A stretch of 64,000 bases of DNA, from positions 744,001-808,000 of the forward strand of contig NZ_CP016477.1 in assembly GCF_001693275.1 (NCBI RefSeq), written 5' to 3'. The position numbers were made by a program, and so were the translations under genes. The notes under the pieces were generated by a model that did no database searches, was not told the origin of the DNA, and saw only the letters and a program-made list of their open reading frames with translations. Numbering within the stretch: position 1 is the first letter of the stretch; each line of letters starts with the position of its first letter. Source of the DNA: Picosynechococcus sp. PCC 7117. Lineage in GTDB: Bacteria; Cyanobacteriota; Cyanobacteriia; Cyanobacteriales; MRBY01. Below are positions 42,812-45,366 of the stretch, in pieces.

Positions 42812-43264
42812 CTAATTTGTTTTGTCTGCGGCAAGTAAACTATTCGGCAGCACATAAACAATGATGGCAAGTTTATAGGTAATGAACCCTAAAAAAGCGG
42901 GGAGAATTTCCAGTTGCTCCAGTTGGGTTGCGATGACGATCAAGCCGATAAAAAGGGCTAGGCGACCGGAACCGGTTCTGGGATTAGTGCTACTGATTTT
43001 TTCTACGCTTTTTGCCAACTGTCTCAAATAAATTATTCCAACGCCAGCACCAATGAGATAACTCACTGCTGTTTGGGCAGAATAGAAGTACCAGACCAAC
43101 AGGGCGATCGCCCCACTGATGGCAAGAGTCACAAAAAAAATGGACTGTTTGAGCTGATAGTACTCGTCCATTGGGGTGTTACTTGCCGAATCCCCATTGT
43201 TTTCTAAGGTTGAGTTAGAAGAGTTGGGAATGTCTGATTGGCTTTGAGACTCAGATGAATTCAC
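42812..43264 (-). CDS. atp1: ATP synthase assembly protein Atp1 (UncI-like)
   Basis: First gene of the operon. The C-terminal 120 residues hold four hydrophobic helices (SIFFVTLAISGAIALLVWYF and so on), matching the UncI/Atp1 family, which helps c-ring assembly. The start is uncertain. From a GTG at 43264 there is a Ser/Asn-rich 33-residue head, while the ATG at 43171 (MDEYYQLK) gives about 119 residues, nearer to small family members. The open frame extends to 43360 but nothing argues for that start. Confidence 0.83.
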   Translation of the reverse strand: MNSSESQSQSDIPNSSNSTLENNGDSASNTPMDEYYQLKQSIFFVTLAISGAIALLVWYFYSAQTAVSYLIGAGVGIIYLRQLAKSVEKISSTNPRTGSGRLALFIGLIVIATQLEQLEILPAFLGFITYKLAIIVYVLPNSLLAADKTN

Positions 43265-43523
43265 GCTCAGCAGGTTTAGAAGATCAAGGGTTTTGATCAG
43301 TTTATTTGACTGTCTATATTGCTTTGTACAAGGGAAACAGTACAAACCACGTGCAATCATATCACGCCATTGTCACAATCCTTAAAAAGTTCCCCATGAC
43401 CCAGGGCGAAGGCTGTAAAAGGGCTAAAGATGGGGATTTCTGGGTTGTGTCTGGGGAGATTCAAGTTATTTTTATAGGGCGCAAACCTGCTTTGGTGGGA
43501 GAATGAATCGTTCTAGGAGGATT

Positions 43524-43619
43524 ATGGCGATGGAGACTGCGGTGTTAGATTGGGTGGCGATCGCCGGTTATTTTGGCGTTACCCTACTGGTTTGCTGGCA
43601 AATTTTCAGTCGGCACTAA
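43524..43619 (+). CDS. 31-residue single-helix membrane microprotein
   Basis: ATG to TAA, 31 codons. A perfect AGGAGG ribosome site stands 4 bases before the ATG, the strongest in this part of the window. The product has an acidic, uncharged-to-negative N-terminus (METAVLD), one hydrophobic helix of about 17 residues (VAIAGYFGVTLLVCWQIF) with a lone Cys, and a basic end SRH. The size and form resemble small photosystem or cytochrome b6f subunits, but it matches none I know (PetG, L, M, N; PsbT, X; Psb30). It precedes the aldo/keto reductase gene by 51 bp and is divergent from the atp operon. Confidence 0.65.
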   Translation: MAMETAVLDWVAIAGYFGVTLLVCWQIFSRH

Positions 43620-43670
43620 TCAGCTTTTCCTGACTTTTTCTCAGTATTTCACTCCATTCAAACTGATGTT

Positions 43671-44645
43671 ATGCGCGAGCAACTTATTCTTCCCACCATG
43701 GGCTGTGGCACCTGGGCCTGGGGCAATCGCCTGCTGTGGGGGTACCAACCCAGCATGGATCAAGAACTACAACAGGTGTTTAATTTCTGTGTGACCAGTG
43801 GCATTACCCTCTTTGATACGGGGGATTCCTATGGAACCGGGCGTTTAAGCGGTCGTAGCGAAAGCCTACTGGGGCAATTTTCTCAAGCCTACGCTGGTCG
43901 TCACCAACAGGAAATCGTTCTGGCGACTAAACTGGCTCCTTATCCTTGGCGGCTCACCGCTGGCTCGATGAAACGGGCTGGAGCCGCTTCCGCGAAACGT
44001 TTACAGCGGCCAATTGATTTAGTGCAAATGCATTGGTCAACGGCAAATTATGCCCCTTGGCAAGAAAAACGATTATTGCGCGGTTTGGCAGAACTGTACG
44101 AAACGGGTCAGGTGAGAGGCGTAGGGTTATCCAACTATGGTGGTCAGCGACTCCGGGAAATGCACCGTTGGTTTCAGGATTGGGGCGTACCGATTCGGAC
44201 ATTGCAGGTGCAGTATTCTTTGCTTTCAACGGATCCGGTACTGAAATATGACGTCAAAGCCGTATGCGACGAATTGGGGATTCAGTTAATCGCCTATAGT
44301 CCCCTGGCCCTTGGTCTGTTGACGGGAAAATATAGCTTAGATAAACCGCTGCCCAAGGGTCTAAGACGGCGAGTTTTCAAGCAAGTTTTGCCGAACATGG
44401 CCCCGTTGCAGAGCTGTTTACAGGAGCTGATGGCGCTGCACCAAAAAACCATGGCCCAGGTAGCTTTAAACTGGTGTATTTGTAAAGGGACAATGCCGAT
44501 TCCGGGGGCAAAAAATCTCACCCAAGCCCAGGAAAATGCTGGGGCATTGGGTTGGCACCTAAGCGCCGCTGAAGTAGAAGCCCTCGATCAAGCGGCAGCC
44601 CAAGTCACAAAAACCATGGTGCAAAATCCGTTCCAGTCCCGTTAA
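43671..44645 (+). CDS. Aldo/keto reductase
   Basis: 324 residues with the (beta/alpha)8 AKR fold. The catalytic tetrad is suggested by Asp/Tyr in FDTGDSYGTGRLSGRSE, Lys in LATKLAPYPW and His in LVQMHWSTANY. The NADPH-binding end is GTMPIPGAKNLTQAQENAGA. The substrate is unknown; cyanobacterial relatives reduce aldehydes or may be pyridoxal reductase-like. It lies 15 bp before the next ORF on the same strand, suggesting an operon of three genes. Confidence 0.9.
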   Translation: MREQLILPTMGCGTWAWGNRLLWGYQPSMDQELQQVFNFCVTSGITLFDTGDSYGTGRLSGRSESLLGQFSQAYAGRHQQEIVLATKLAPYPWRLTAGSMKRAGAASAKRLQRPIDLVQMHWSTANYAPWQEKRLLRGLAELYETGQVRGVGLSNYGGQRLREMHRWFQDWGVPIRTLQVQYSLLSTDPVLKYDVKAVCDELGIQLIAYSPLALGLLTGKYSLDKPLPKGLRRRVFKQVLPNMAPLQSCLQELMALHQKTMAQVALNWCICKGTMPIPGAKNLTQAQENAGALGWHLSAAEVEALDQAAAQVTKTMVQNPFQSR

Positions 44646-44660
44646 ATTTTGAAGATTGCC

Positions 44661-45029
44661 ATGACCACTGCTCCTCATCCTGTCCCTGTGCTTGAATCTC
44701 CCGAACAGTTGGCGGAATGTCTCACCCAAGCCCAAACCTGGGCAGAAATTGAACTGCTCACCCAAGCCTACCCCGACTTTAAGGCGATCGCCTGGAAACA
44801 ATTATCGGCAGATCAGCAAGGCCGCATTCTCAAGCTCAGGGATTTGAAAGATAAGGCGATCGCCCAGGAGTTCCCCCTTGGTTGCCTCGTGCAACGCCGG
44901 GCAGATCCAGAGCAAAAACAGGGCAAAGTAGTGGATTATTGGGACGCCTACGGGGTTGATTACGTCGTGTTTACCGTTGATGGCTTTACCGATTGGTGCC
45001 CCGGTTCTATGCTCGAACGACTCGATTAA
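44661..45029 (+). CDS. Hypothetical cyanobacterial protein (122 residues)
   Basis: Soluble, Gln/Ala-rich in its first half (LAECLTQAQTWAEIELLTQ) with a C-terminal beta-rich part VVDYWDAYGVDYVVFTVDG and WCPGSMLERL. The C-terminal half looks like a small SH3-like or Tudor-like domain that could bind a partner. The ATG at 44661 is preferred over a TTG at 44649. It directly follows the aldo/keto reductase. No function can be assigned. Confidence 0.7.
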   Translation: MTTAPHPVPVLESPEQLAECLTQAQTWAEIELLTQAYPDFKAIAWKQLSADQQGRILKLRDLKDKAIAQEFPLGCLVQRRADPEQKQGKVVDYWDAYGVDYVVFTVDGFTDWCPGSMLERLD

Positions 45030-45099
45030 AACGGTAGGCGCTGCTCTTGAGAAAATCAATATATATTGCCGCGCTTTAACTTGTGAAAGGGAGCGTGTT

Positions 45100-45366
45100 A
45101 TGAAAAAGTACGTGCTCTTTTCAGACTTGATCAACCCCAGGCCCATGCGTGATACCTCCGAAATTCGTTTTCAGCTACACCACGAGCTCAACCAGTGTTA
45201 CCAAAAACTCTTTGATTCCCTTGCTTCCATGCAGATCAAAGAAGGGGATGCAGCCACCGTTGCTCAACTCCTGCTTAATTCTCGTCTGGATGCCCTAAAA
45301 CACCTCGTCAGTGAAGCAGAACGTCCTGCCTACGATGCCCGTTACCCTGAGGACGCTGAAGATTAG
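45100..45366 (+). CDS. Small hypothetical protein (88 residues)
   Basis: The ATG at 45100 has a GGGAG ribosome site. The protein starts MKKYVLFSDLINPRPMRD and is mostly helical (LHHELNQCYQKLFDSLASM, then ATVAQLLLNSRLDALKHLV), with an acidic tail. No membrane segment or known motif is seen. It follows the 122-residue ORF by 70 bp, and is convergent with ispG. Confidence 0.68.
   Translation: MKKYVLFSDLINPRPMRDTSEIRFQLHHELNQCYQKLFDSLASMQIKEGDAATVAQLLLNSRLDALKHLVSEAERPAYDARYPEDAED

Follow-up and report, generated by a model that had tools for sequence, protein, structure and literature searches.

A one-helix membrane microprotein family of cyanobacteria without a named relative in Pfam, NCBIfam or PDB sequences

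A short open reading frame between the atp operon and an aldo/keto reductase gene of Picosynechococcus sp. PCC 7117 is almost certainly a real gene. It encodes a microprotein with a single predicted membrane-spanning helix and, as far as sequence comparison can tell, belongs to a family without a named relative in Pfam, NCBIfam or the PDB sequences. The frame is under constraint at the protein level, and the family it represents is spread across many cyanobacterial lineages in changing genomic surroundings. "The window" below is the whole 64,000-nucleotide stretch that was analysed (NZ_CP016477.1, positions 744,001 to 808,000, forward strand), and G000 to G005 are the six genomes of the genus, G000 being that of the host.

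Results

The gene and its locus

The first-pass annotation of the window had described a 31-residue open reading frame and had placed it between the atp operon and an aldo/keto reductase gene. Both the frame and its placement proved exact, with a CGL160/AtpI-like gene on one side and a PF00248 reductase on the other (Table 1). In the five genomes of the genus with an intact copy, the reductase starts 46-63 bp past the end of the microprotein match. The gene is single copy in the host genome (3,432,101 bases). A 4,675-base contig of that genome, C2, aligns to plasmid NC_010476.1 of Picosynechococcus sp. PCC 7002 at 91.5% over 81% of its length, in agreement with the genus. An Rfam search of positions 43000-44000 returned no element at E <= 0.5, and promoter and terminator scans gave results near chance level.

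Table 1. Features at the microprotein locus, in window coordinates
Feature	Coordinates	Strand	Remarks
Divergent first gene of the atp operon, CGL160_C / ATP-synt_I (CGL160/AtpI-like)	42812..43360	-	
AGGAGG, Shine-Dalgarno-like	43515..43520	+	AGGAAG in G002, GGGAGG in G001
Microprotein gene, first-read form	43524..43619	+	ATG to TAA, 31 codons, MAMETAVLDWVAIAGYFGVTLLVCWQIFSRH
Microprotein read from the next ATG in frame (29 aa)	43530..43619	+	Likelier start, from spacing and sister genomes
L-D-W, motif before the span	43545..43553	+	Window's version of W-x-D-W (commonest form), without the first W
Hydrophobic span, residues 11-24	43554..43595	+	From the 66-member alignment
W-Q	43596..43601	+	Window's form of the predicted cytoplasm-side W-(R/Q) motif
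Aldo/keto reductase, downstream	43671..44645	+	PF00248; same strand as the microprotein

Two further features of this part of the window deserve mention. A 22-base block, CAAACCACGTGCAATCATATCA (43343-43364), shows no difference among G000 to G005. Its - strand reading includes TGATATGAT, a sequence resembling an extended -10 box. The block may for this reason be the atp operon promoter. The start of the CGL160/AtpI-like frame, called at 43360, falls within the block and may have been placed too early. Further along, positions 44956-45366 give a weak match to TIGR04374, a hercynine metabolism small protein (45 bits against a cut-off of 70).

Start codon and Shine-Dalgarno-like site

The frame had also been credited with a perfect ribosome-binding site. 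The AGGAGG is present, and the importance given to it is not supported. Its distance to the ATG at 43524 is 3 nt, rather short for an ideal site; to the ATG at 43530 it is 9 nt. Nor is it rare: the window holds 20 copies of AGGAGG against 32 expected from shuffles, and two of AGGAGG-N4-11-ATG against 4.1 expected. Given the first of these counts, AGGAGG alone is no evidence for a gene. Conservation across the family is also missing, a Shine-Dalgarno-like four-base core occurring within 20 nt upstream of the putative start in 41 of 141 homologous rows. These rows include repeat fetches of some loci, and their start codons were assigned by a script that took the one closest to 11 codons ahead of D-W.

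Sister genomes bear on the start as well. The codon equivalent to the ATG at 43524 is TAG in G004 and ATA in G001, where a TTG follows one codon after the ATA and GGGAGG stands ahead. From these replacements and the 9-nt spacing, the true start may be 43530, giving a protein of 29 residues; this is the start we favour, short of proof.

A constrained protein-coding frame

Conservation in sister strains had been proposed as a check on the frame, and the frame passes it with one exception. Among G000 to G005, five genomes have it intact at the same locus, and it is broken in G005 (L064; C14:47787-47873), where it contains a TGA and a TAG while the adjoining aldo/keto reductase is still open. Compared with its orthologue in G004, the window shows 11 synonymous and no nonsynonymous changes over 22 codons (Fisher p = 1.3e-9), and compared with that in G002, 4 and none. 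The corresponding counts are 7.7 and 2.3 for G001, and 14 and 10 for G003. This pattern of synonymous and nonsynonymous change indicates that the frame is protein-coding and constrained.

The frame also contains one copy (43557-43564) of the octamer GCGATCGC (HIP1), which occurs 112 times in the whole window against 1 expected. The octamer is unchanged in G001, G002 and G004, and the codon differences counted against these three genomes all fall outside it.

Protein anatomy and predicted topology

The 66 aligned members of the family are 27-42 residues long (median 35) and share a simple architecture. Ahead of the span stands a motif with W at column 15 in 46 of 66 members, D or E at column 17 in 64 and W at column 18 in 64. 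The 14 columns of the span hold a charged residue or His in none of the 66, and Tyr occupies column 24 in 65. Behind the span, column 33 is W in 59 members and Y in 5, and column 34 is R in 39, Q in 19 and K in 2. AlphaFold predicts a single helix over residues 2-30 (mean pLDDT 90.7), so that the one clean hydrophobic helix of the first reading is upheld both by the alignment and by the model. The Cys that had seemed worth noting is a peculiarity of few members, being present at the window's column in 5 of 66 and anywhere in 8 of 66.

Net charge is negative on the N-terminal side in all 66 members, a count that depends partly on the script-chosen starts, and positive on the C-terminal side in 64. 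By the positive-inside rule, we infer that the N-terminus faces out: the acidic side with its D/E-W motif would lie in the lumen or periplasm, and the tail, being basic, in the cytoplasm.

Distribution

A tblastn search with the 31 residues against 60 relatives found matches in 34 at E <= 1; eight of the 30 loci fetched failed the later profile and were dropped. Profile A1, built from 20 members, matched 151 of 388 genomes of the class at E <= 0.01, and profile A3, built from 66, matched 146 at E <= 0.001, including, among the matches listed, two that hold a stop codon (G360 and G252, the latter with a TGA inside the match). Counting good assemblies alone, A3 matched 121 of 334, and by genus its matches cover 75 of 159. 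The loci collected gave 94 distinct protein strings. The microprotein went undetected in the other 242 class genomes, absences that are uncertain because at most 19 candidates were scored per genome in the first step (at most 26 in the phylum draw). In that wider draw, 44 of 291 genomes match, one of them through the broken G005 copy; all 44 belong to one class, whose share of the 291 is not given. As the gene is broken in G005 and undetected in those 242 genomes, some lineages appear to dispense with the microprotein.

Among the named genomes are 48 microprotein loci, 47 with cyanobacterial titles, and the hosts include Microcoleus, Tychonema, Planktothrix, Chroococcus, Calothrix, Rivularia, Hyella, Lyngbya and Waterburya. 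The remaining locus (L147, JACCVJ010000658.1) is titled Tatlockia sp.; three of its neighbour clusters also occur at a Chlorogloea locus (L146), and this metagenome-assembled genome is therefore probably mislabelled or contaminated. All four genomes of the Synechocystis-type genus (genus g8: G012, G040, G272, G298) gave no detectable microprotein, and two genomes of that genus carry the Synechocystis hliR1 gene. Viral contigs yielded 17 pattern matches, none of them confirmed, and plasmids and phages yielded no match to a consensus-like string; in both cases the query was 35 residues long and its reach limited.

Comparison with known small proteins

PDB chain sequences include the small subunits of cytochrome b6f and the photosystems, and one-helix subunits are numerous in cyanobacterial complexes. 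The earlier remark that the protein has no strong similarity to known b6f or photosystem microproteins stands, with no convincing match in Pfam (searched with 20 members to E <= 1 and with all 66 to E <= 10), NCBIfam or the PDB chain sequences. With the 66 members, 13 Pfam families were touched, each by one or two members and with a best E of 0.01 (T4SS_pilin 0.01, DUF6954 0.016, DoxX_2 0.021, MgtS-like 0.038, FixQ 0.054). In NCBIfam, PVV-CTERM (0.0049) was matched by 2 of 20 members and an XrtV-system protein (0.0072) by 1 of 20; in our view these are chance resemblances, such as a helix followed by a basic tail can give. The PDB file, which leaves out chains consisting of unknown residues only, gave one profile match, to a cellulose synthase at E 0.91. 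The span may recall the first helix of sodium/solute symporters, although no such family came up in the Pfam and PDB searches. In the titles and abstract openings of the literature searched, the family goes unnamed.

The closest resemblance in kind is to the one-helix subunits PetG/L/M/N, PsbI/J/K/L/M/T/X/Y, PsaI/J/M/X, NdhP/Q and CydX, which are of similar size, span the membrane once, carry aromatics at the membrane edge and fall below open reading frame cut-offs. The microprotein, at 27-42 residues with one span and aromatics at the membrane edge, is likewise missed by such cut-offs. Unlike these subunits, it matches no profile or PDB chain convincingly, shares no operon with complex genes among the loci compared, and is undetected in many phototrophs.

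Three small proteins of Synechocystis were compared individually. SliP4, first named HliR1, is a 37-residue protein under RpaB control that aids the association of NDH1 with PSI or PSII in high light, as described in PMC12850537, and PMC5126843 reports homologues of it only within Synechocystis. The microprotein is likewise stand-alone, one-helix and of similar size, whereas the SliP4/HliR1 sequence, MSNLIAVAFCGYFALL..., lacks both D-W and W-R. Membership was rejected, with the orthologues of G040 and G298 scoring 1.4 and 1.2 bits against A3. The RpaB/HLR1 motif was not enriched upstream of the family: best scores averaged 11.65 out of 16 over 84 upstream regions and 11.83 over 295 controls (p = 0.91). 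The window's own upstream region scores 12 of 16. A scan for NtcA sites was without result.

Norf4, also a widespread membrane microprotein, has 31 residues and one predicted helix and occurs in 51 cyanobacterial genomes according to PMC5126843, where the small proteins of Synechocystis appear by name. The likeness in length and helix ends there: the Norf4 sequence, MTADQLLMLVVLLVPGILLSALVMGSFAKGG, which like that of SliP4/HliR1 was taken from genomes of genus g8, has no match to the A3 profile at E <= 1000 with all filters off, and Norf4 was rejected as a member. AtpTheta, an inhibitor of the ATP synthase that we take to be Norf1 of the same Synechocystis set, is likewise small and cyanobacterial, and the microprotein has an atp neighbourhood here, though in a single genus among the loci compared. 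Norf1 is listed with 48 residues, a pI of 3.76 and no transmembrane region (PMC5126843, Table 3), whereas the microprotein has 31 residues and one span, and AtpTheta was rejected on these grounds.

Genomic context

Neighbouring genes were compared for 89 loci, taking in no more than about 7 kb of flank and at some loci less. The neighbours agree within this genus and within a Microcoleus-type group and differ between lineages. Within a genus the gene stays in position, and from lineage to lineage it occupies different chromosomal sites that share no operon. Genes of the atp operon lie nearby in 6 of the 89 loci, all from this genus. A link to that operon is thus not supported, and we rejected the operon as a partner. 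Nor did the loci compared reveal a conserved operon joining the microprotein to genes of photosynthesis or respiration.

A neighbour that recurs in four families (f22, f32, f33 and f57) is c8, an exported-looking protein of about 100 residues with four Cys and a motif, RSAK..W.YR, that is invariant in nine aligned members. It reaches no cut-off in Pfam or NCBIfam, and its structure model, built from three sequences, is too poor to read (pLDDT 51.6). c8 adjoins the microprotein in 9 of 89 loci and occurs in 133 of the 388 class genomes. In G012 it is convergent to a gene that, judged from its sequence, resembles ribose-5-phosphate isomerase.

Could the microprotein and c8 form a two-part module, in which a membrane anchor would bind c8 through its outward D/E-W end? 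The adjacency speaks for this, at those 9 of 89 loci and, within 1 kb, in 9 of the 93 class genomes that have both genes, as do G026, G052, G058 and G110, where c8 lies upstream on the same strand with match-to-match gaps of about 24-68 bp, and so does a correlated presence across the class (93 genomes with both, 53 with the microprotein only, 40 with c8 only; odds ratio 8.9, a statistic that ignores phylogeny). However, of the nine class genomes with adjacent genes, eight are from f33, where the pairs are mostly convergent, and one is from f57. The two genes are far apart in the host genome (c8 at C1:204426-204653), the model of c8 offers no guidance, and the genomes with one gene alone indicate that c8 is no obligate partner. 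We consider the module improbable.

A search for hidden microproteins beside c8 in 20 further c8 regions and G012 gave a single remnant, in G371; one of the 20 genomes (G013) has the microprotein elsewhere, and some were searched by tblastn only. The remnant (family f33; L222, 1908-1949) is a decayed copy that retains 13 codons from the end of a frame resembling the microprotein, VFIIWRVFTVEKN. It scores 16.1 bits, the next best among the c8 regions examined reaching 7.7.

Discussion

So, what might the microprotein do? We see about an even chance that it serves a larger complex of the thylakoid or plasma membrane as an accessory subunit. The assignment draws on analogy with PetN, PetL, PsaM, NdhP and CydX, small subunits that we use as the comparison for helix packing on a complex. 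The helix would pack against the larger complex and stabilise or tune it, the conserved face of Tyr, Gly and aromatic residues would form the contact surface, and the aromatics at both helix ends would fix how deeply it sits in the bilayer. c8, as a neighbour in four families, would be a possible partner on the N-terminal side. The microprotein should not be a core part of its complex, given the broken copy in G005 and the many complete genomes in which it went undetected. As the four genomes of genus g8 gave no match either, it can be essential to no universal complex. That it is an unrecognised subunit of a core complex, present in 146 of the 388 class genomes, perhaps the poly-Ala helix near PsbJ in the far-red PSII of Synechococcus 7335 or the anchor of a module with c8, seems unlikely to us.

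Other explanations fit parts of the evidence. A chance frame or a transporter fragment would account for 31 codons, which alone are not significant, and for an AGGAGG that is not rare, but synonymous-only change against G002 and G004, together with free-standing homologues that have their own stop codons, already refutes that reading and leaves it a negligible probability. A leader peptide or upstream frame controlling the aldo/keto reductase would suit the shared strand and the short distance to that gene in the five intact genomes. Yet the amino acids are conserved across lineages without the reductase nearby (its cluster is limited to the six loci of the genus), no Rfam element was found, and a leader would not keep a helix and a motif whatever gene lies downstream, which makes such a function very doubtful. 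Type I toxins are small, with one helix and a basic tail, and often, though not by strict definition, have copies on mobile elements. The likeness in size and build is real, but the single copy in the host genome, the strong protein-level constraint and the lack of phage or plasmid copies in our limited 35-residue search leave a toxin with very little probability. Rather more room, although still on the unlikely side, must be given to a protein that responds to stress or light and regulates or organises existing complexes without being a stoichiometric subunit. Stand-alone gene position and patchy presence fit such a role, for which the 37-residue SliP4, with its part in NDH1-photosystem association as given in PMC12850537, is a precedent. 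Against it, the sequences are unrelated and HLR1 sites are not enriched upstream of the family.

Whatever its role, a family found in 146 of 388 class genomes without a convincing Pfam, NCBIfam or PDB match marks a concrete and testable gap. Several of the one-helix subunits of cyanobacterial complexes were found late owing to their very short genes. None of the four genomes of the Synechocystis-type genus gave a match, and this may be why small-protein work in Synechocystis would pass the family by. Existing mass-spectrometry and cryo-EM data can now be searched again with profile A3.
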